Source of the DNA: Bacillus sp. ISL-45
Lineage (GTDB): Bacteria > Bacillota > Bacilli > Bacillales > Cytobacillaceae
DNA: 64,000 nucleotides
Direction: 5' to 3'
NCBI RefSeq assembly: GCF_018613195.1
Contig: NZ_JAGGQQ010000012.1
Coordinates: 1 to 64,000 of the forward strand
The notes below the pieces were generated by a model. It was not told where the DNA came from, searched no databases, and saw only the letters and a program-made list of their open reading frames with translations. Each line of letters opens with the position of its first letter. Within the stretch, counting starts at the first letter, position 1. This document shows positions 338-46,314 of the stretch, one piece after another. A program made the position numbers and the translations under genes.

Positions 338-412
338 TCCGCAGTAGCTCAGTGGTAGAGCACTCGGCTGTTAACCGAGCGGTCGTAGGTTCGAATCCTA
401 CCTGCGGAGCCA
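338..412 (+). tRNA. tRNA-Asn (GTT)
   Basis: Acceptor arms TCCGCAG (338-344) and CTGCGGA (402-408) pair. The anticodon loop is CTGTTAA with anticodon GTT, the T-loop is GTTCGAATC, and CCA is encoded. First tRNA after 5S, as in the B. subtilis trnD cluster. Confidence 0.97.
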
Positions 413-416
413 ATTT

Positions 417-508
417 GGAGAGCTGTCCGAGAGGTCGAAGGAGCACGATTGGAAATCGTGTAGACGGTCAACGCTGTCTCAAGGGTTCGAATCCCTTGCT
501 CTCCGCCA
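417..508 (+). tRNA. tRNA-Ser (GGA)
   Basis: Class II tRNA with a long variable arm. Acceptor GGAGAGC pairs with GCTCTCC, the anticodon loop carries GGA, and CCA is encoded at 506-508. It starts 5 nt after tRNA-Asn. Confidence 0.96.
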
Positions 509-524
509 TAGAAACTTTATATCT

Positions 525-599
525 GGCCCCTTGGTCAAGCGGTTAAGACACCGCCCTTTCACGGCGGTAACACGGGTTCGAATCCCGTAGGGGTCACCA
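525..599 (+). tRNA. tRNA-Glu (TTC)
   Basis: Anticodon loop CTTTCAC with TTC lies between CCGCC and GGCGG arms. Acceptor GGCCCCT pairs with AGGGGTC, and CCA is encoded. Confidence 0.96.
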
Positions 600-657
600 G
601 AATTTTTTCGCCTAAGCGAAAAAATTATCCTTTGAAAAGTATCAGCGAACATATTAC

Positions 658-733
658 GGAGGATTAGCTCAGCTGGGAGAGCATCTGCCTTACAAGCAGA
701 GGGTCGGCGGTTCGATCCCGTCATCCTCCACCA
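658..733 (+). tRNA. tRNA-Val (TAC)
   Basis: Acceptor GGAGGAT pairs with ATCCTCC. The anticodon loop TTACAAG gives TAC, and CCA is encoded at 731-733. Confidence 0.96.
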
Positions 734-764
734 TGATTTTTTACGAAGTAAAAATAATCTTCAA

Positions 765-788
765 TTATTACCGTCGCGGGGTGGAGCA
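765..788 (+). repeat. duplicated 5' fragment of the initiator tRNA gene
   Basis: These 24 nt are identical to 906-929, which covers the last 10 nt of leader and first 14 nt of tRNA-fMet. After position 788 the sequence diverges and cannot fold as a tRNA. The 117 nt between the two copies (789-905) have no recognisable gene. The arrangement looks like a small insertion in, or partial duplication of, the 5' end of the tRNA gene, leaving one intact copy downstream. Confidence 0.85.
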
Positions 789-915
789 ACAAGCGTTACT
801 TCACTGTATGAACTGCGAGTTGTACCGATCGAGCAGCAGCTTGAATAGGCTTCCTGAGATCGGGACAGTCATTGCTCTCAAGGAGCATGAACAAAATGAT
901 ATTCTTTATTACCGT

Positions 916-989
<74 letters not shown>

Positions 990-992
990 TCT

Positions 993-1068
993 GGTCCCGT
1001 GGTGTAGCGGTTAACATGCCTGCCTGTCACGCAGGAGATCGCCGGTTCGATCCCGGTCGGGACCGCCA
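993..1068 (+). tRNA. tRNA-Asp (GTC)
   Basis: Acceptor GGTCCCG pairs with CGGGACC. The anticodon loop contains GTC, and CCA is encoded at 1066-1068. It begins only 3 nt after tRNA-fMet. Confidence 0.96.
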
Positions 1069-1096
1069 TTTTTATTAAAAGTGGCAAAGTTATAGT

Positions 1097-1172
1097 GGCT
1101 CAGTAGCTCAGTCGGTAGAGCAAAGGACTGAAAATCCTTGTGTCGGCGGTTCGATTCCGTCCTGAGCCACCA
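1097..1172 (+). tRNA. tRNA-Phe (GAA)
   Basis: Acceptor GGCTCAG pairs with CTGAGCC. The anticodon loop TGAAAAT gives GAA, and CCA is encoded. Confidence 0.96.
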
Positions 1173-1243
1173 TATATACAATACCTGGCTATTCAGGGAA
1201 TTTGATAAAATGGGTTTTTTAACATCAAAAAAGATGTTATAGT

Positions 1244-1328
1244 GGAGGGGTAGCGAAGTGGCTAAACGCGGCGGACTGTAAATCCGCTCCCTCAGGGTTC
1301 GGCGGTTCGAATCCGTCCCCCTCCACCA
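1244..1328 (+). tRNA. tRNA-Tyr (GTA)
   Basis: Class II tRNA with a long variable arm. The anticodon loop contains GTA, acceptor GGAGGGG pairs with CCCCTCC, and CCA is encoded. Confidence 0.96.
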
Positions 1329-1336
1329 CTTAATAT

Positions 1337-1410
1337 AGGGGTATAGTTTAAAGGTAGAACGAAGGTCTCCAAAACCTTTGGTGTGGGTTCGATTCCTACT
1401 ACCCCTGCCA
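1337..1410 (+). tRNA. tRNA-Trp (CCA)
   Basis: Anticodon loop TCTCCAAAA carries CCA. Acceptor AGGGGTA pairs with TACCCCT, and CCA is encoded at 1408-1410. Confidence 0.95.
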
Positions 1411-1420
1411 ATTTTATAAT

Positions 1421-1497
1421 GGCGATTGTGGCGAAGTGGTTAACGCACCTGATTGTGGTTCAGGCATTCGTGGGTTCGATTCCCATCAGTCGCCCCA
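1421..1497 (+). tRNA. tRNA-His (GTG)
   Basis: G at -1 (1421) faces C73 (1494), the tRNA-His identity pair. Acceptor GCGATTG pairs with CAGTCGC, anticodon GTG is in the loop, and CCA is encoded. Confidence 0.95.
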
Positions 1498-1537
1498 TTA
1501 TAATTCACAAATGTAATAATAAGAGCATACAATATAT

Positions 1538-1612
1538 TGGGCTATAGCCAAGCGGTAAGGCATCGCACTTTGACTGCGACATGCGTTGGTTCGAATCCAG
1601 CTAGCCCAGCCA
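1538..1612 (+). tRNA. tRNA-Gln (TTG)
   Basis: Anticodon loop CTTTGAC gives TTG. Acceptor TGGGCTA pairs with TAGCCCA, and CCA is encoded. Confidence 0.95.
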
Positions 1613-1618
1613 TTTTTT

Positions 1619-1693
1619 GCGGAAGTAGTTCAGTGGTAGAATACAACCTTGCCAAGGTTGGGGTCGCGGGTTCGAATCCCGTCTTCCGCTCCA
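1619..1693 (+). tRNA. tRNA-Gly (GCC)
   Basis: Acceptor GCGGAAG pairs with CTTCCGC. The anticodon loop TTGCCAA gives GCC, and CCA is encoded. Confidence 0.95.
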
Positions 1694-1702
1694 AAAATAT
1701 AT

Positions 1703-1777
1703 GGCGGCATAGCCAAGTGGTAAGGCAAAGGTCTGCAAAACCTTTATTCACCGGTTCAAATCCGGTTGCCGCCTCCA
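1703..1777 (+). tRNA. tRNA-Cys (GCA)
   Basis: Acceptor GGCGGCA pairs with TGCCGCC. The anticodon loop contains GCA, and CCA is encoded. Confidence 0.95.
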
Positions 1778-1819
1778 CTAACTCATTAGTGGCAGCAAGA
1801 AAGCAAGACATTTTAATAT

Positions 1820-1904
1820 GCCGGTGTGGCGGAATTGGCAGACGCGCACGACTCAAAATCGTGTTCCTTCTGGAGTGTCGGTTCGACCCCGACCACCGGT
1901 ACCA
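1820..1904 (+). tRNA. tRNA-Leu (CAA)
   Basis: Class II tRNA. The anticodon loop CTCAAAA gives CAA, acceptor GCCGGTG pairs with CACCGGT with one G:T pair, and CCA is encoded. Confidence 0.95.
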
Positions 1905-1956
1905 CTTTTATTATAAACAGGATTTCCTGTTTTCTTTATTTCATAAAGATATGTAT

Positions 1957-2030
1957 GCGGGTGTAGTTTAGTGGTAAAACCTCAGCCTTCCAAGCTGATG
2001 ATGAGGGTTCGATTCCCTTCACCCGCTCCA
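1957..2030 (+). tRNA. tRNA-Gly (TCC)
   Basis: Acceptor GCGGGTG pairs with CACCCGC. The anticodon loop CTTCCAA gives TCC, and CCA is encoded. Last tRNA of the array. Confidence 0.95.
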
Positions 2031-3191: not shown

Positions 3192-4349
3192 ATGGATACA
3201 GCTAGCCTGAAAAAAGATATTATTGAATACAGCAAAACGATTGGCATCGATAAAATTGGTTTTGCAGCTCCTTCAGCTTTTGAAGAGATGAAGGTCAGGT
3301 TATACAGGCAGCAGGAATTACAATATCAATCCGGGTTCGAGGAAAAGGATATTGAGAAGAGAACTGAGCCTTCCCTGATTTTTGACCGTCCTAAGACAAT
3401 CATCTCGATTGCACTAGCTTATCCTTCAAAGATGAAGACGAAAGTTGTCAGCAAGAAGGGAGAGCGGCGTGGAGTCTTCTGCCGTGCATCCTGGGGGACG
3501 GATTACCACGTGGTCCTAAGGGACAGGCTGAAAAAACTGGAGGAATACATTGTATCGAGGGTACCTGATGCGAGGTTTAAGTCGATGGTCGATACGGGCG
3601 AACTTGTGGACAGGGCTGTTGCCGAACGGGCGGGGATAGGCTGGAGTGGAAAGAACTGTTCCATCATCACACCAGAGTTTGGATCATATGTTTATTTGGG
3701 TGAGATGATCACAAATCTTCCATTTGAACCCGATACGCCGATGGAGGATCGTTGTGGCAGCTGCAATAAATGTGTGGAAATCTGTCCGACAGGAGCTCTC
3801 GTGCAGGGCGGCCAGTTAGATGCGCAAAAATGCATTGCCTTCGTGACTCAGACTAAGGGCTTTTTGGCAGACGAGTTCCGTGAAAAGCTTGGTAACCGCT
3901 TATATGGCTGTGATACTTGCCAGACAGTTTGTCCCGAGAATAAAGGGAAGGATTTTCACTTTCATCAAGAAATGGAACCTGATCCTGAGATTGCGAAGCC
4001 GCTCCTGAAACCTCTACTGACCATGAGCAACCGTGATTTTAAAGAAAAGTTCGGGCATGTATCCGGTTCGTGGAGGGGCAAGAAGCCTATTCAGCGCAAT
4101 GCGATCATTGCTCTTGCGCATTATAAGGATGATACTGCAATACCAGAGCTGATTATGGTGTTGAAGGATGACCCTAGGCCTGTGCTCAGGGGAACAGCAG
4201 CATGGGCCCTTGGCAAAATCGGCGGCCGTGATGCTTTGGACGCATTGAAACATGCTTCTGTTGTAGAGAAGGATGAGGAAGTATTAAATGAGATCAGCAA
4301 GGGAATGGAATTTTTCAAGGGCAACTCAGAGTCGAATATAACTTTGTGA
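3192..4349 (+). CDS. queG: epoxyqueuosine reductase QueG
   Basis: Catalyses the last step of queuosine biosynthesis, reducing epoxyqueuosine to queuosine in tRNA with cobalamin and two 4Fe-4S clusters. At 385 residues it is the usual length. The ferredoxin motif CGSCNKCVEICPTGAL (about residues 188-203) and a second CDTCQTVCP (about 240-248) are visible, and the last 80 residues resemble HEAT-like repeats (TAAWALGKIGG). AAAGGAGG precedes the ATG by 8 nt. It is the homologue of B. subtilis YhbA and stands first in the conserved queG-yhbB-trmL block. Confidence 0.95.
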   Translation: MDTASLKKDIIEYSKTIGIDKIGFAAPSAFEEMKVRLYRQQELQYQSGFEEKDIEKRTEPSLIFDRPKTIISIALAYPSKMKTKVVSKKGERRGVFCRASWGTDYHVVLRDRLKKLEEYIVSRVPDARFKSMVDTGELVDRAVAERAGIGWSGKNCSIITPEFGSYVYLGEMITNLPFEPDTPMEDRCGSCNKCVEICPTGALVQGGQLDAQKCIAFVTQTKGFLADEFREKLGNRLYGCDTCQTVCPENKGKDFHFHQEMEPDPEIAKPLLKPLLTMSNRDFKEKFGHVSGSWRGKKPIQRNAIIALAHYKDDTAIPELIMVLKDDPRPVLRGTAAWALGKIGGRDALDALKHASVVEKDEEVLNEISKGMEFFKGNSESNITL

Positions 4350-4438
4350 GAAGGATGGATTTTTAGAAAATCCATCTTTTTTTATGCGTGAAATCCTGGA
4401 ACACTTCATAAATATGAATGGTGAAGGGAGAGATGAAC

Positions 4439-5332
4439 ATGCGTGAGCAACTGCAGGAACTGTTGGAACAGCGTGTCCTTCAATGTGTTTCCATGCCGAG
4501 AAATCAATTGCACGAGTGCCCCAGTATAGAGCAGAAAAAGCAGAGTTTTGCCAGCAGATCTGCTGAAATTGTAAAAGCAAAGGCAAATGGCAGGGTTGAA
4601 GAGAAATTTGAAAATAAGGAGAATGCCTCGATTTTATATGAGGTTCATTTTCAGTATTTGATTAAGCAGCGGGGTCTATTTTACATGGAGGAGGAAGTGG
4701 AGAAGAGGCAGGCGGAATTTTACAAGGGTGTTCTGGTAAAGGATGAAAAGCTAAATGAGATCAGGGAGTCTAACGGCAGCGATGAAGCGTTGCCTGCTTT
4801 TGCGCAGCAGGAGGGAGACCAGGAGAGGAAGGGCTTCAGATACGACAGGCTGAAGGCCGTCCAGTATGCAGAAAGATGGTGGAATGACTACAACCCTGCA
4901 TATAAGAAGTTCGAGGTTGATTGTACCAACTATATCTCACAATGCCTGCATCAGGGCGGAGGACCGATGCGCGGGTATCCAAACCGCAGCAATGGCTGGT
5001 GGATGCAGAATGATAATTGGAGCTTCAGCTGGTCGGTAGCCAATGCGATGCGCTGGTACATCCCAGGGTCCAAGCTGGGCTTAAGGGGGAGAGAAGTAAA
5101 CAGTGCTGAAAAACTAAAGCTTGGTGATGTCATCTGCTATGATTTTGAGGGAGATGGACGTTTCGACCATACTACAATTGTTACGGGACACGATGCGGAT
5201 GGCATGCCGCTAGTCAATGCTCATACGTATAACAGCAGGATGCGATATTGGGCTTATGAGGATTCGACCGCTTATACCCCGAATATTAAATACAAGTTTT
5301 TTACGATTACGGATGATTACGACGATATTTGA
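4439..5332 (+). CDS. yhbB: YhbB-like amidase-domain protein
   Basis: A 297-residue protein with a C-terminal Amidase_6-type domain of the papain-like/NlpC fold, as judged by the pattern YNPAYKKFEVDCTNYISQC, whose Cys would be catalytic, and a downstream FDHTTIVTGH His motif. The N-terminal half is charged and probably helical. No signal peptide is seen. AAGGGAG is 8 nt before the ATG at 4439; an ATG two codons upstream is too close to it. Position between queG and trmL matches B. subtilis yhbB. A cell-wall peptide or amide substrate is plausible but unproven. Confidence 0.8.
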   Translation: MREQLQELLEQRVLQCVSMPRNQLHECPSIEQKKQSFASRSAEIVKAKANGRVEEKFENKENASILYEVHFQYLIKQRGLFYMEEEVEKRQAEFYKGVLVKDEKLNEIRESNGSDEALPAFAQQEGDQERKGFRYDRLKAVQYAERWWNDYNPAYKKFEVDCTNYISQCLHQGGGPMRGYPNRSNGWWMQNDNWSFSWSVANAMRWYIPGSKLGLRGREVNSAEKLKLGDVICYDFEGDGRFDHTTIVTGHDADGMPLVNAHTYNSRMRYWAYEDSTAYTPNIKYKFFTITDDYDDI

Positions 5333-5422
5333 TGGCTTAATGACAATAGTACGGCGCCATTTCTTTTGCTGAGAAGGAGTGAAGTGGTATAATAGCTTTA
5401 GTTTTTAACAGAGGTGAAAGTC

Positions 5423-5902
5423 ATGGCATTGCATGTAGTATTATACCAGCCGCTCATACCAGCAAACACTGGCAATATTGCTCGCACATGTGCTGGTACC
5501 GATACCGAGCTTCACTTAATCAGGCCGTTGGGATTTTCAACGGATGACAAGATGTTGAAGAGGGCGGGTTTGGATTACTGGGAGCATGTGAAGATTCACT
5601 ATTATGATTCGCTTGAGGATTTTTATCAACAGAACGAGGGCGGAGAATTCTTTTATGTGACCAAATTTGGCAAAAAGGCGCATTCCGATTTTGATTATAG
5701 TGCAGCCGAAAAGGATTTCTTTTTTATTTTTGGCAGAGAGACGACAGGACTTCCTAAAGATGTGATCGAAAACAATATGGAGACATGCCTGAGGCTGCCT
5801 ATGAATGAAAATATCCGTTCATTAAATCTGTCTAACACAGCCGCTATTTTGATTTATGAAGCGCTTAGGCAGCAGGATTATCGAGACTTGCGTAAATACT
5901 AG
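5423..5902 (+). CDS. trmL: tRNA (cytidine/uridine-34 2'-O)-methyltransferase TrmL
   Basis: A SPOUT-superfamily methyltransferase that methylates the wobble ribose of tRNA-Leu isoacceptors using S-adenosylmethionine. The 159 residues match the short single-domain family (formerly CspR). N-terminal VLYQPLIPANTGNIARTC, central FGRETTGLP and C-terminal LRLPMNENIRSLNLSNTAAI are the knotted AdoMet-site motifs. The ATG at 5423 follows AGAGGTG by 7 nt; an in-frame GTG upstream overlaps that site. An eight-pair terminator starts on the last base of its stop codon. Confidence 0.95.
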   Translation: MALHVVLYQPLIPANTGNIARTCAGTDTELHLIRPLGFSTDDKMLKRAGLDYWEHVKIHYYDSLEDFYQQNEGGEFFYVTKFGKKAHSDFDYSAAEKDFFFIFGRETTGLPKDVIENNMETCLRLPMNENIRSLNLSNTAAILIYEALRQQDYRDLRKY

Positions 5903-5926
5903 GAGGCCTGACCAGGTCTCCTTTTT
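5902..5926 (+). terminator. trmL terminator
   Basis: GGAGGCCT and AGGTCTCC pair around GACC, then TTTTT. The stem begins on the last base of the trmL stop codon. Confidence 0.85.
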
Positions 5927-6033
5927 GGCATGCCTAAGTGCCAGCTGGGATTTTGAAGACGACTGGTACTTTGCAGTGAATTAAAATGTTACTTATCCAG
6001 GCTATATATATTCCAGAAGGAGTTGTTATTTAA

Positions 6034-6783
6034 ATGAACCAGGTAATCGAGACTCTCTTACAGCATCGTTCGATCAGGCGTTTTACGGATACACCGCTGG
6101 ATCGAGAACAAATTGAAGCAATCGTGAAAAGTGCTCAGGCAGCATCAACTTCGAGCTTTATACAGGCGTATTCAATAATCGGTATAACAGATCAGGATAA
6201 AAAGACCAAGCTTGCAGAGTTGGCTGGTAATCAGGCTTATGTGGCGAATAGTGGCCATTTTTTTGTATTTTGTGCAGATCTTCATCGACATAAGGTCATA
6301 TCAGAGATGGAAGAGTCAGATCTTGATGATTCGATTGAGAGTACAGAGAAATTCATGGTTGCCTTGATCGATGCGGCTCTGGCAGCCCAGAATGCCGCCA
6401 TTGCGGCCGAATCCATGGGACTGGGGATTTGCTATATAGGAGGAATACGGAACGATCTCGAGGCAGTAAAGGAGGTTCTGAAGACACCAGAACATGTTAT
6501 CCCGCTGTTTGGCATGGCAGTAGGATATCCTGACCAGGACACGGACGTAAAGCCGCGTCTGCCTCTCGAGCATGTGTATATGGAAAATGAGTACCAACAG
6601 GACAGGGGTGTGTTTGAAAAGCAGCTCCGCGACTATAATACCACTACTTCAGAATACTACCGGGAAAGAACCGGAGGAAAACGTGAGGACACCTGGACGG
6701 AACAGATGGCAAAAATGCTTGGGCGAAAATCAAGGATGTACATGAAGGAGTTTGTGGAAAAACAGAATTTGAATAAAAAATAA
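6034..6783 (+). CDS. nfsA: NADPH-dependent nitroreductase/flavin reductase (NfsA/NfrA type)
   Basis: An FMN-dependent oxidoreductase of the group-A nitroreductases that reduces nitro compounds, quinones or FMN with NAD(P)H in the cytosol. The N-terminal HRSIRRFTDTPL motif contacts FMN phosphate. SMGLGICYIGGIRND and GYPDQD are typical of this subgroup, as is the C-terminal segment YYRERT...W. Length 249 residues is normal. GAAGGAG precedes the ATG. It is alone between terminators, an insertion relative to the B. subtilis order. Confidence 0.92.
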   Translation: MNQVIETLLQHRSIRRFTDTPLDREQIEAIVKSAQAASTSSFIQAYSIIGITDQDKKTKLAELAGNQAYVANSGHFFVFCADLHRHKVISEMEESDLDDSIESTEKFMVALIDAALAAQNAAIAAESMGLGICYIGGIRNDLEAVKEVLKTPEHVIPLFGMAVGYPDQDTDVKPRLPLEHVYMENEYQQDRGVFEKQLRDYNTTTSEYYRERTGGKREDTWTEQMAKMLGRKSRMYMKEFVEKQNLNKK

Positions 6784-6795
6784 TCATAGAAAAGT

Positions 6796-6823
6796 AAAAA
6801 AGCTGCCAATCGGCAGCTTTTTA
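6796..6823. terminator. bidirectional terminator between nfsA and the 31-codon ORF
   Basis: AGCTGCC and GGCAGCT form a stem with A-run before and T-run after, so it can act in both directions. It serves the plus-strand nitroreductase and the minus-strand small ORF. Confidence 0.85.
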
Positions 6824-6916
6824 TTTTTTGTTGACTCCCGGCTTATCATCGTAACCGCCTGTGAAAATAGCAGCTAGAAATGCAATACTTACGCCTATAA
6901 TTAGGATTAGTTTCAT
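6821..6916 (-). CDS. small single-pass membrane protein (31 aa)
   Basis: An open frame of 31 codons reading MKLILIIGVSIAFLAAIF and then a short polar tail (TGGYDDKPGVNKK). It has one hydrophobic helix at residues 2-18 and a good GGGAGG ribosome site 8-9 nt before the ATG. It shares the bidirectional terminator with nfsA. I do not recognise a family. The ribosome site, terminator and hydrophobic-then-polar design support a real gene, but there is no comparative evidence. Confidence 0.6.
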   Translation of the reverse strand: MKLILIIGVSIAFLAAIFTGGYDDKPGVNKK

Positions 6917-7071
6917 GTATGTAAGCCTCCCTTTTTATCGTTTTGTTCATATAGAAATCATTATATCCTATTATGCTGCAACTGTGAAGGATGGGCTTAT
7001 TTTTTCCTTTAGGAGGTAAAAAAGGACAATCCTCCTTGCAGAACGTTTACGCATGTTCAAATTGTTTGCTG

Positions 7072-7079
7072 CATAGAAT
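7072..7079 (+). promoter_or_regulatory. possible SigE-type -10 upstream of prkA
   Basis: CATAGAAT resembles the mother-cell SigE -10 (CATACA-T) and lies about 40 nt before the prkA start. PrkA is SigE-dependent in B. subtilis. The -35 is not clear. Confidence 0.35.
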
Positions 7080-7120
7080 TTATTAATCGTCTCTTGATAA
7101 CGCTAGATGGGGAGGTCCAT

Positions 7121-9016
7121 ATGGATATTTTAAAAAAGATTGAGATGTATCGCCAGGGTGAAGAGAAGCTTAAATGGGAAGGGACGTTCAGGGAGTATCT
7201 TGAAATTGTTAAGGAACAGCCGTGGGTAGCTCAATCGGCACATTCGCGTGTATATAATATGATCAAGGATGCAGGAATTGAAAAAGAGAAAGGCAAGAAG
7301 CGCTATTCCTTCTTCAATTCACAGTTATTCGGCCTTGAAGAGGCGCTGGAAAGGCTTGTCGAGGAGTATTTTCATCCGGCTGCGAAAAGGCTTGATGTCA
7401 GAAAGAGGATTTTACTGTTGATGGGACCTGTAAGTGGAGGTAAATCAACACTCGTCACCATGCTGAAAAGGGGGCTTGAGGCGTATTCGCATACAGACAG
7501 GGGAGCAATATATGCAATCAAAGGCTGCCCTATGCATGAAGACCCGCTGCATATGATTCCGCATCATTTGCGCAAGGATTTTTATGATGAGTATGGCATC
7601 AGAATTGAAGGCAATCTCTCACCGCTTAATATGATGAGGCTTGAACAAGAGTATGGCGGCAGGATTGAAGATGTCATCGTAGAGCGAATCTTCTTCTCCG
7701 AGGATAAGCGGACGGGAATCGGCACATTCAGTCCATCTGATCCCAAATCCCAGGATATTGCGGATTTGACTGGCAGCATTGACTTCTCGACCATCGCGGA
7801 ATATGGATCTGAGTCCGATCCGCGAGCCTACCGTTTTGATGGGGAATTAAATAAGGCGAACCGCGGGATGATGGAGTTCCAGGAAATGCTTAAGTGTGAT
7901 GAGAAATTCCTCTGGCACTTGCTGAGCCTGACGCAGGAAGGCAATTTTAAAGCGGGAAGATTCGCATTGATTAGCGCGGATGAATTGATTGTCGCGCATA
8001 CGAATGAAACGGAATACCGTTCTTTCATTTCCAACAAGAAGAATGAAGCCTTGCATTCACGTATCATTGTGATGCCGATTCCATATAACTTAAAAGTGAC
8101 CGAAGAAGAGAAGATCTATGACAAGATGATCAGAGAAAGTGATGTAAATGATGTCCATATCGCGCCGCATACTCTGAGGGTGGCTGCGATGTTCACGATT
8201 CTTACGCGCCTTAAGGATCCAAAAAAGGGCGACATCGACCTGATCAAGAAGATGAGGCTTTATGATGGAGAAAGTGTCGAAGGGTACAACAGAGCTGATG
8301 TTGAGGAATTGAAAAAAGAGCATCAGGATGAGGGAATGAGCGGAATTGACCCTCGTTATGTCATCAACCGTATTTCTTCTACAATCATCAGGAAAGAAGT
8401 CAAAACAATTAATGCTTTAGACGTCCTGAGATCACTTAAGGAAGGTCTTGACCAGCATCCATCGATTACGGCTGAAACAAGGGAGCGCTACCTGAACTAT
8501 ATATCTCTTGCCCGGAAGGAGTATGACGATATCGCCAAGAAAGAAGTACAAAAGGCATTCGTTTACTCTTATGAAGAGTCAGCTAAAACCCTTATGGATA
8601 ATTACCTTGATAATGTTGAAGCTTATTGTAATAAGGCGAAGATGCGTGATCAGCTGACTGGTGAGGAAATCAATCCTGATGAGAAGCTGATGCGCTCTAT
8701 CGAAGAACAGATCGGCATTTCCGAAAACGCCAAGAAAGCCTTCCGCGAAGAGATTTTAATCAGGATTTCTGCCTACGCGAGAAAAGGCAAGAGGTTTGAT
8801 TACAATTCGCATGACCGCTTGCGTGAAGCAATCCAGAAAAAGCTGTTTGCTGATTTGAAGGATGTCGTCAAGATTACGACTTCAACAAAGACTCCTGATG
8901 AGACGCAGCTGAAGAAAATCAATAATGTCGTCGCAAGATTGATCGATGAGCATGGATACAACTCTACCTCAGCGAATGAATTGCTGCGGTATGTCGGAAG
9001 CCTGTTGAATAGATAG
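7121..9016 (+). CDS. prkA: PrkA serine protein kinase / AAA+ protein
   Basis: A 631-residue protein of the PrkA family, active in sporulation (forespore/mother-cell development, effect on SigK) and described as kinase or AAA+ protease. The Walker A motif GPVSGGKST lies at about residues 105-113. The N-terminal AAA-like half is followed by the PrkA C-terminal domain. GGGGAGG is 6 nt before the ATG at 7121; an upstream TTG in frame is not needed. In many bacteria prkA is linked with a YeaH/YhbH and a SpoVR gene. Here yhbH follows after one small gene and spoVR lies 53 kb away. Confidence 0.95.
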   Translation: MDILKKIEMYRQGEEKLKWEGTFREYLEIVKEQPWVAQSAHSRVYNMIKDAGIEKEKGKKRYSFFNSQLFGLEEALERLVEEYFHPAAKRLDVRKRILLLMGPVSGGKSTLVTMLKRGLEAYSHTDRGAIYAIKGCPMHEDPLHMIPHHLRKDFYDEYGIRIEGNLSPLNMMRLEQEYGGRIEDVIVERIFFSEDKRTGIGTFSPSDPKSQDIADLTGSIDFSTIAEYGSESDPRAYRFDGELNKANRGMMEFQEMLKCDEKFLWHLLSLTQEGNFKAGRFALISADELIVAHTNETEYRSFISNKKNEALHSRIIVMPIPYNLKVTEEEKIYDKMIRESDVNDVHIAPHTLRVAAMFTILTRLKDPKKGDIDLIKKMRLYDGESVEGYNRADVEELKKEHQDEGMSGIDPRYVINRISSTIIRKEVKTINALDVLRSLKEGLDQHPSITAETRERYLNYISLARKEYDDIAKKEVQKAFVYSYEESAKTLMDNYLDNVEAYCNKAKMRDQLTGEEINPDEKLMRSIEEQIGISENAKKAFREEILIRISAYARKGKRFDYNSHDRLREAIQKKLFADLKDVVKITTSTKTPDETQLKKINNVVARLIDEHGYNSTSANELLRYVGSLLNR

Positions 9017-44079: not shown

Positions 44080-44441
44080 AGTCTAAATCTCCAGTCGACA
44101 AGGAGCCACCTGCTCCAATCAAATGATAATTTAACGAAAAAGATAAATTATTCAAATATATTACTTTTACTTTAACACAAAATGAATTATAGTTGCTTTT
44201 TTTTTACCTTAAAGTGGATGTCTAGTGGCAACTGAAAGAGTTCACTGTTGCCATACTATTTTTCAAGTGTTGGGCGGTATAATCTAAAGTTTTCCCATGA
44301 AAATTCAAGGTTTATGTACAAAATAGTGTCAAGGCATTAATACATTCTTCGGCTAAAACCAGACAGCTAAAAGCGGATAATTGGCTACGCCTCATGGCTT
44401 GGCGTTATACTAATTTTACAAAATACTTAAGGAGGTAAAAA
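44080..44441. other. intergenic region upstream of the UGA-containing glutaredoxin gene
   Basis: AT-rich region. A GGCAAC...GTTGCC inverted repeat lies at about 44226-44252. A weak promoter-like TTGGCT with TTATAC about 18 nt on lies near 44381-44410. No other gene or known RNA is recognised. Confidence 0.35.
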
Positions 44442-44723
44442 ATGACCAAAAGCTCATTAACTGTATTCACTCGGCCAATGTGAACAGACTGCCGGGACGC
44501 GAAGGAGTTTCTTTCGCAGAATCATATACCTTATGAAGAAATCAATGTCCAGGGTGACCCTGAACAGGAGAAGAAACTTAAAGAGCAGACGGGTACTGCG
44601 ATTGTACCAGCTTTTATTTTTACAAGCACGAAGCTCTTTTTTATGAAGGATAAAAAGGTTTTGATCGGATTTGAAAATAACAGGAGCGAAATAGAAAAAC
44701 TGGTTGAAAATTTGAAGCAGTAG
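44442..44723 (+). CDS. candidate selenoprotein: glutaredoxin-like protein with UGA at the first active-site Cys
   Basis: The frame has AAGGAGG 6-7 nt before the ATG, reads MTKSSLTVFTRPM, then TGA at 44481-44483 (codon 14), then TDCRDAKEFLSQNHIPYEEI and stays open to TAG at 44721, 93 codons in all. With the UGA read as selenocysteine the active site is U-T-D-C, exactly where glutaredoxin-like proteins have CxxC. The cis-proline stretch GTAIVPAFIF and KVLIGFENN follow as expected for the fold. A hairpin of SECIS geometry begins 15 nt after the UGA. A strong terminator follows and a cystine transporter gene is next. The alternative is a nonsense mutation of TGC/TGT. The selA, selB, selC and selD genes are not in this window. 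Confidence 0.75.
44481..44517 (+). promoter_or_regulatory. candidate bacterial SECIS element
   Basis: After UGA (44481-44483), GCGAAGG (44499-44505) pairs with CTTTCGC (44511-44517) in a 7-bp stem containing one G:T, leaving loop AGTTT. There are 22 nt between UGA and loop, and a G occurs within the first two loop bases, as in published models of bacterial SECIS hairpins. It lies inside the coding frame, as bacterial SECIS elements do. Confidence 0.6.
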
Positions 44724-44732
44724 AAAGACAGG

Positions 44733-44767
44733 GGAGGGTTCCGATGATGCATCGGAACCCTCTTTTT
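44733..44767 (+). terminator. terminator of the glutaredoxin-like gene
   Basis: GAGGGTTCCGAT and ATCGGAACCCTC form a 12-bp stem followed by TTTTT. Confidence 0.92.
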
Positions 44768-44925: not shown

Positions 44926-46314
44926 GTGACCACTGGACTTGTTATTTTAAATATTGCAGTTATGCTAGGCATTATTGCTTTTCTATTTTACATGCAAAAG
45001 AAACATGTCTCTTTTTCTAAAAGAGTATTTATTGCGCTCGGAATCGGGATCATCTTCGGTTTCGCACTGCAATTCATTTACGGAGCGGGTTCCGAAATTA
45101 TTACAAAAAGTACTGACTGGTTCTCGATTATCGGAAGCGGTTATGTAAAGTTCCTGCAAATGATTGTTATGCCGCTAGTATTCATATCCATTTTGGCAGC
45201 TTTCACAAAGCTGAAGCTGACGAATAACATCGGTAAAATCAGTACATTGATTCTGGGCCTGCTGGTTGGCACAACGGCTGTAGCGGCTGCTGTAGGGATT
45301 GCCACTGCCGTCGGTTTCGACCTTGAAGCGGTACAAATCACGCAGGGTGAGGCAGAACAGGCACGTGCAGAAAAGCTCGAGGAAACATATGGAGGAATCG
45401 AGGGGCGTACGATGCCGCAGCAAATTCTGGACCTCCTGCCAGCTAACCCATTCCTGGACTTCACAGGAGCAAGACCAACTTCGACGATTTCAGTTGTAAT
45501 TTTCGCTGCGTTCCTAGGAATCGCTTACCTTGGTGTCAGGAGAAAGTCCCCGGATCAGGCAGAGCTTTTTGCGAAGATCGTTGATGCTTTCTACGCGGTC
45601 ATCATGAGGGTGGTCACGCTGATCCTGCGCCTGACTCCATATGGAGTTCTTGCCATCATGACAAAGACGGTTGCCTTAAGTGATTTTGACGCAATTTTAA
45701 AACTAGGTAAATTCGTAGCAGCTTCTTATGTTGCGCTTGCAATCATGTTCATCATCCATTTGTTATTACTGACGATTGCTGGTTTAAATCCAGTCACGTA
45801 TGTTAAAAAAGCATTTCCTGTTCTCGCGTTTGCTTTCACTTCAAGAACGAGTGCCGGGGCATTGCCGTTAAATATCAAAACTCAGCGCTCTCTAGGAGTA
45901 CCTGAAGGGATTGCGAACTTTGCCGGTTCCTTCGGCTTATCGATCGGGCAAAACGGATGCGCCGGGATTTATCCTGCGATGCTGGCAGTCATGATTGCAC
46001 CGTCGGTTGGTGTTGACCCATTGACGCCTTCATTCATCGCAACCGTGATCGCGATCGTAGCCATCAGCTCATTCGGAGTTGCCGGAGTCGGTGGTGGCGC
46101 GACATTTGCGGCGCTACTAGTTCTTTCAGCGTTGAACCTGCCGGTTGCTCTTGCTGGGTTGCTGATTTCCATCGAACCATTGATTGATATGGGGCGTACC
46201 GCTGTAAATGTGAGCGGCTCGATGACTTCGGGTATCCTCACAAGCAGAATCACTAAAGAAATTGATTCATCTACCTATACAGATATGAATCAAAAAATTG
46301 AAGCAGAAGCTTGA
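44926..46314 (+). CDS. tcyP: L-cystine:cation symporter TcyP
   Basis: A 462-residue dicarboxylate/amino-acid:cation symporter of the TcyP branch, which imports cystine. KFLQMIVMPLVFISILAAF (about residues 84-102), FAFTSRTSAGALPLNIKTQ (about 304-322) and QNGCAGIYPAMLAVM (about 343-357) are signatures. Start GTG with GGGGGG upstream. The neighbour is the UGA-containing glutaredoxin-like gene, and both concern thiol or selenol chemistry, but each has its own promoter or terminator. Confidence 0.93.
   Translation: MTTGLVILNIAVMLGIIAFLFYMQKKHVSFSKRVFIALGIGIIFGFALQFIYGAGSEIITKSTDWFSIIGSGYVKFLQMIVMPLVFISILAAFTKLKLTNNIGKISTLILGLLVGTTAVAAAVGIATAVGFDLEAVQITQGEAEQARAEKLEETYGGIEGRTMPQQILDLLPANPFLDFTGARPTSTISVVIFAAFLGIAYLGVRRKSPDQAELFAKIVDAFYAVIMRVVTLILRLTPYGVLAIMTKTVALSDFDAILKLGKFVAASYVALAIMFIIHLLLLTIAGLNPVTYVKKAFPVLAFAFTSRTSAGALPLNIKTQRSLGVPEGIANFAGSFGLSIGQNGCAGIYPAMLAVMIAPSVGVDPLTPSFIATVIAIVAISSFGVAGVGGGATFAALLVLSALNLPVALAGLLISIEPLIDMGRTAVNVSGSMTSGILTSRITKEIDSSTYTDMNQKIEAEA

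Follow-up and report, generated by a model that had tools for sequence, protein, structure and literature searches.

Does the TGA that interrupts a short and otherwise intact frame in the window (i.e. the whole 64 kb stretch of DNA analysed here) specify selenocysteine (Sec), or does it mark a dead gene? The original prediction proposed a glutaredoxin-like selenoprotein of the U-x-x-C type, with a nonsense mutation of TGC/TGT into TGA as its nearest alternative. Conservation of the UGA, a compensatory hairpin that is absent from Cys homologues, and the presence of tRNA-Sec, SelA, SelB and SelD support that proposal, and on these grounds we consider it very probable (roughly 0.95) that the frame encodes a Sec-containing glutaredoxin-like redoxin, a bacterial selenoprotein and not a pseudogene.

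A reading frame broken by one UGA, and its predicted product

Reading and translation of the locus bore out the claim of a single frame broken only at codon 14 (ATG at 44442, TGA at 44481-44483) and followed by 79 clean codons up to the TAG at 44721-44723. The expression signals that had been claimed were likewise found (a ribosome-binding site 5 nt before the ATG, the stop codon, and a 13-pair hairpin with a T run behind it), and the locus comprises the following features:

44429..44436, + strand: ribosome-binding site AAGGAGGT (direct reading), with the ATG 5 nt downstream
44442..44723, + strand: predicted selenoprotein CDS, 93 residues with Sec14, MTKSSLTVFTRPM-U-TDC..., Grx/Trx-like fold
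44481..44483, + strand: in-frame TGA, predicted Sec14, N-terminal residue of the U-T-D-C active site
44490..44492, + strand: TGC, Cys17, predicted resolving cysteine and C-terminal residue of UxxC, invariant in alignment A1
44499..44517, + strand: candidate bacterial SECIS-type hairpin, 15 nt past the UGA (stem 44499-44505/44511-44517, loop AGUUU 44506-44510)
44734..44762, + strand: terminator-like hairpin of 13 pairs, then TTTTT (the palindrome scan listed it on the - strand only; the TTTTT is that of the + strand)
44926..46314, + strand: gene of the PF00375 Na+:dicarboxylate symporter family, TcyP-like, next gene downstream

Elsewhere in the window, a dense cluster of 15 tRNA genes occupies 338-2030 (+). 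By itself, the open run behind the TGA is weak evidence and not rare, as chance is enough to yield it (counted over all frames of both strands, the window has 2677 TGA triplets, and at least 79 open codons follow 71 of them); it is the conservation across the genomes of the genus, described below, that lifts the codon-14 TGA beyond chance.

Translated with X at codon 14, the product matches the Pfam glutaredoxin family (PF00462, 40 bits against a cut-off of 22.9), and its structure model (pLDDT 93, pTM 0.84) has the strand-helix order of a Trx-like fold. The leading PDB matches of the model are cGrx1 (7c10, the best), which we take to be the Sec-Grx of Clostridium oremlandii, cGrx2 and E. coli Grx3. 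In the alignment Sec14 takes the place of the nucleophilic Cys, and position 14 (U, shown as C), D16, C17, I54-V55-P56 (with the expected cis-Pro) and G76-F77 are invariant in alignment A1, in agreement with the active site and the fold-consistent downstream part that had been read from the sequence. Against NCBIfam the selenoprotein falls below every cut-off, including those of the YruB-family glutaredoxins (TIGR02196: 42.7 bits against 88.55) and of UXX-star (NF041212: 34.4 bits against 66), and membership in UXX-star was rejected on that score. Phage records gave no match.

Conservation of the UGA codon and of the hairpin behind it

Within the set of 61 genomes searched for orthologues (its own and 60 relatives), the gene was identified in 18 of 20 genomes of the same genus (by inference Mesobacillus), or 19 of 21 with its own, the relatives' copies being 68-92% identical to it and each copy having exactly one in-frame stop, a TGA. 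No orthologue was found in two same-genus genomes, G009 (66% complete) and G015. All 19 rows read have TGA at the aligned active-site position, within the motif TRPM-U-TDC (its T being replaced by N in one row and by S in another). At family level a profile search (E <= 1e-12) recovered the gene from 41 of 193 genomes, with one TGA in 42 of 44 places and none in two; at order level (E <= 1e-15) it was present in 46 of 397 sampled genomes, in UGA and Cys forms both. Thus, the in-frame UGA is conserved among close relatives, recurs at the same codon in other genera and families, and is aligned with Cys in more distant homologues.

These observations bear directly on the possibility that TGC/TGT became TGA by mutation or sequencing error and left a dead gene. 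Three public plasmid records do annotate UGA relatives as truncated proteins that start at or after the codon following the TGA (two of them as 'hypothetical'), and the copies of G170, which is frameshifted past the stem, and of G201 look decayed or stranded. Nevertheless, TGA stands at this codon in 19 of 21 genus genomes as well as in other genera and families, the scattered further stops expected of decaying close relatives are absent (one stop per genus copy), and both the hairpin and the downstream protein are conserved. We therefore regard a pseudogene as very improbable, and the nonsense-mutation alternative of the original prediction fails.

The hairpin in question (GCGAAGG-AGUUU-CUUUCGC) begins 15 nt after the UGA in the window. 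Bacterial SECIS elements are hairpins situated just past the UGA, with a G early in a small apical loop, and the element found here conforms to this description: G occupies loop position 1 or 2 in 45 of 45 UGA rows and in 22 of 64 Cys rows. Among these rows (distinct proteins obtained by a motif search of the collected loci, not all genomes) six or seven of the seven stem pairs are formed in 44 of 45 UGA rows (36 with seven, 8 with six and 1 with five pairs) against 1 of 64 Cys rows (Fisher 3e-28), the Cys rows coming largely from a scan with two patterns ([FY]TRP[MT]C[TS]DC and GTxIVPAFI; 80 of 101 relatives kept). The motif did not pick up three UGA loci (L185, L187 and L191), in which 7, 6 and 5 of 7 pairs are formed, and their addition gives 46 of 48 UGA rows with at least six; the plasmid UGA copies, three in number and likewise not counted among the 45, have 7, 5 and 7 pairs.

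Pairing was furthermore compared with shuffles in the 45 UGA rows, which come from several genera and families and comprise 43 different 48-nt pieces. In these, 96.7% of stem cells are paired and 17 cells are changed on both sides, and 0 of 500 shuffles reach the paired fraction, the number of both-side-changed cells or the covariation score; with the partner strand shifted by 1-3 columns, pairing falls to 32-72%. Two of the five pair measures are no better than shuffles, namely both-side-changed pairs (2 vs 1.7) and further pair types (6 vs 5.4). In the 64 Cys rows only 48.3% of stem cells are paired and a slide by -3 gives more (60.5%); some of their measures, the covariation score among them, are also above shuffles, and related sequences can beat shuffles on covariation without any structure. 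The outermost codon of the stem illustrates the compensation, since the forms GCG/CGC, GGG/CCC, GTG/CAC and TTG/CAA stay paired while codon 20 reads Ala, Gly, Val or Leu, and despite such forms an outer pair is lost in some rows (L016 is without one pair; L180, L191 and the plasmid copy L200 are without the two outer pairs). Moreover, the stem codons 20-25 are near-frozen in 18 distinct Mesobacillus sequences (mean synonymous diversity 0.033, vs 0.352 over 45 conserved codons elsewhere, 8 of them likewise invariant; permutation p 0.0008), for which selection on the RNA is the natural reading. Taken singly, the 53-nt piece of the window folds no better than its shuffles (z -0.41), and Rfam gave no named element here, the only match being at E 0.63 (22.6 against a gathering score of 50). 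From the comparison of rows, a SECIS is the only proposed element that would also explain the split between UGA and Cys forms.

Selenocysteine machinery in the genome and its relatives

The search for selA, selB, selC and selD that had been put forward as a check on the selenoprotein claim found the full Sec machinery in the same genome (4.6 Mb, 99.84% complete). A tRNA-Sec with anticodon UCA scores 58.3 bits against a cut-off of 47 (ARAGORN agrees), SelA matches at E 6.9e-144, SelB at 365.6 bits against 242.25, and SelD, divergent from selA, at 401 bits against 125 (TIGR00476). The profile of the SelA N-terminal domain (PF12390) has no match in the genome, which is not evidence of SelA absence given that the main SelA family profile matched. 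The tRNA-Sec gene (L041:3261-3357, +, contig C19) lies beside a tyrosine integrase (PF00589) and a primase-polymerase (PF09250) at 3466-7403 (-), a neighbourhood suggestive of a mobile element inserted at this tRNA gene.

Further UGA codons point to the use of this machinery. The selD frame has a TGA of its own (L040:7864-7866, context KAG-U-GCK), and SelD is probably a selenoprotein too, judging from that context. In two formate dehydrogenase alpha genes (L204 and L205) a TGA stands at NRT-U-H, at position 1885 of either locus when read along the coding strand, and behind it comes a hairpin whose loop reads GGUCU; a weaker match with one TGA lies at G000:C17:97756-98508. A second redoxin (glutaredoxin) gene, of U-P-Y-C type, has its TGA at L042:3005-3007 (contig C12) with a CCUUGA-GGG-UCAAGG hairpin; it scores just under the YruB cut-off (85.7 vs 88.55) and was also present in 7 of 7 relatives fetched, all of which were picked because a TGA had been reported. 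The UGAs of SelD, of the formate dehydrogenases and of this second redoxin, together with the machinery, make it likely that Sec decoding is in regular use. The spore formers concerned are largely aerobic, and the gene had been called unusual for such an organism; this judgement did not hold up, Sec being common in the lineage (172 of 193 family genomes have SelA at E <= 1e-60, and two UGA formate dehydrogenases occur here).

Across genomes, SelA accompanies the UGA form in 48 of 49 cases and the Cys form in 12 of 26 (Fisher p 2e-7, a value that overstates independence as the genomes are related; G267, whose aligned Cys stretch contains a TAA, was omitted, and weak matches of about 1e-11 in G352 and G542 were scored absent). 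The exception is G201 (Bacillus sp. B1-b2; L177 / L075), which has the UGA gene and its hairpin, and no match for SelA or tRNA-Sec in its genome. It could be that the machinery was lost, that the gene arrived by recent transfer, or that the assembly has gaps or contamination (5%); the copy is possibly a stranded selenoprotein gene, and the case indicates that a UGA gene can exist where it should be unreadable. In the opposite direction, G107 (L196) has the Cys form despite SelA and tRNA-Sec and keeps a hairpin relic (GGGAAAGAGTTTCTTTACA), and Cytobacillus purgationiresistens (L109) was noted alongside it as a Cys copy with a decayed SECIS hairpin; both likely represent a recent Sec-to-Cys change. 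A tree of 109 rows implies at least 6 changes between UGA and Cys, 6 being the minimum on that poorly resolved tree (88 columns, 56 open branches), of which only 2 are required by the starred branches.

A near-cognate tRNA (Trp or Cys) might instead read the UGA and give a W or C redoxin with no selenium. Low-level readthrough of UGA is known in Bacillus, and the persistence of the gene in G201 would be compatible with it. However, readthrough leaves both the association with SelA and a hairpin confined to UGA forms and missing from Cys forms unexplained; a Trp in place of the nucleophile would abolish the CxxC chemistry, and recoding to Cys would need no special codon. We consider this reading highly unlikely, and reject it together with the nonsense mutation on the hairpin, the SelA association and the conservation.

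Under the selenoprotein reading, and by analogy with the established bacterial Sec pathway, SelB-GTP-Sec-tRNA would bind the hairpin (SECIS) and insert Sec at the UGA, and where selenium is absent the product would end at 13 residues. The fold suggests that Sec14 (as selenolate nucleophile) and Cys17 would act as a UxxC redox pair reducing disulfides. The genome encodes BshC, an enzyme of bacillithiol, from which we infer that the pair would more likely be re-reduced by the thioredoxin or the bacillithiol system than by glutathione.

Relation to known redoxins and the copper link

Glutaredoxin (PF00462, UxxC) is listed among the known prokaryotic selenoproteins in two reviews (PMC13188914, PMC9312934), and the tables of a 2006 survey enter glutaredoxin (3) and, for Firmicutes/Bacillales, 3 selenoproteins of 3 families (PMC1794560). 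With this Sec-glutaredoxin the present protein shares the Pfam family, a single Sec placed first in UxxC, and the form of a small stand-alone redoxin; it differs in its UxDC site (x being T, S, N, L, Q, G or M in the rows read, as opposed to UPYC in the second redoxin of the same genome), in 'GFENN' near the C-terminus, in scoring below the NCBIfam cut-offs, in the BshC-encoding genome and in the copper genes found nearby elsewhere. The UXX-star families (NF041211, NF041212, NF045501) are glutaredoxin-like (seleno)proteins too and match weakly, but here a second Cys completes UxxC. Also close are the Cys glutaredoxins of Bacillales copper clusters (e.g. NZ_CP075898.1), which show near full-length homology (36-50% identity), a CxDC active site and copper neighbours, and differ by TGC/TGT at the site and by the lack of a hairpin (1 of 64 with at least 6 pairs). 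On comparative grounds we have high confidence in Sec, and we regard the gene as a genuine selenoprotein gene and a further instance of Sec-glutaredoxin. The main text of the deep-Sep paper (PMC12013277) makes no mention of glutaredoxin, Grx, Bacillus, Bacillales or copper, and we found no description of the UxDC, copper-linked Bacillales branch in our searches of open-access literature. As three plasmid records carry truncated proteins, other members have probably been missed.

Outside Mesobacillus the neighbours of the family suggest a role in copper or disulfide stress. Of the 27 non-Mesobacillus UGA loci, 15 have motifs of copper P-type ATPase, HMA or CsoR nearby, as do 56 of the 64 Cys loci (counted as motif matches in unequal flanks, with truncated ATPases missed; protein families were assigned for the cluster examples). 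On an Exiguobacterium plasmid a CopY-type repressor, a copper-binding protein and a P-type ATPase precede the Cys redoxin in that order (annotated copY, copper-binding protein, P-type ATPase and grx), and a multicopper oxidase lies further on; a UGA copy carried by a plasmid of Mesobacillus foraminis has a P-type ATPase and a multicopper oxidase nearby. Such arrangements would fit a Sec redoxin with a specific job in copper resistance (as a soft-metal ligand, or in the repair of copper-damaged thiols) in place of a general disulfide reductase. Against this, none of the 18 distinct Mesobacillus loci has copper genes in its flanks (median about 1.5 kb upstream and 1.7 kb downstream), and three copper-gene motifs have no match in the whole 64 kb window; a dedicated copper function is a tentative suggestion that we hold to be less likely than not. 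The downstream neighbour matching PF00375 is presumably a TcyP-like protein of cystine uptake, and by motif a symporter of this type flanks 17 of 18 distinct Mesobacillus loci, so that the Mesobacillus copy would appear to have parted from the copper genes and to stand beside a cystine-type symporter. Judged by gene neighbourhood, the copper link seems strong for the family and unproven for the copy of the window; elsewhere the family may serve to counter copper/thiol stress, and exchange between Sec and Cys would have occurred at least twice. As a conjecture that we would not yet favour, the UxDC redoxins may form an unrecognised and widespread Bacillales selenoprotein subfamily, mainly of copper-stress defence, in which repeated exchange of Sec and Cys is tracked by gain and decay of the SECIS and which annotation has truncated.

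A 2026 review states that selenoproteins are rarely retained by aerobic bacteria (PMC13188914), whereas an earlier survey found Sec use to be about equal in aerobes and anaerobes (PMC5029168). The Sec redoxin offers a conserved selenoprotein that can readily be tested in spore formers amenable to culture, whose lineage almost always has SelA. The genomes G107 (Cys, decayed hairpin, SelA and tRNA-Sec present) and G201 (UGA, neither of the two) make the exchange of Sec and Cys directly open to study, and the link to copper clusters provides a testable role for the redoxin family.
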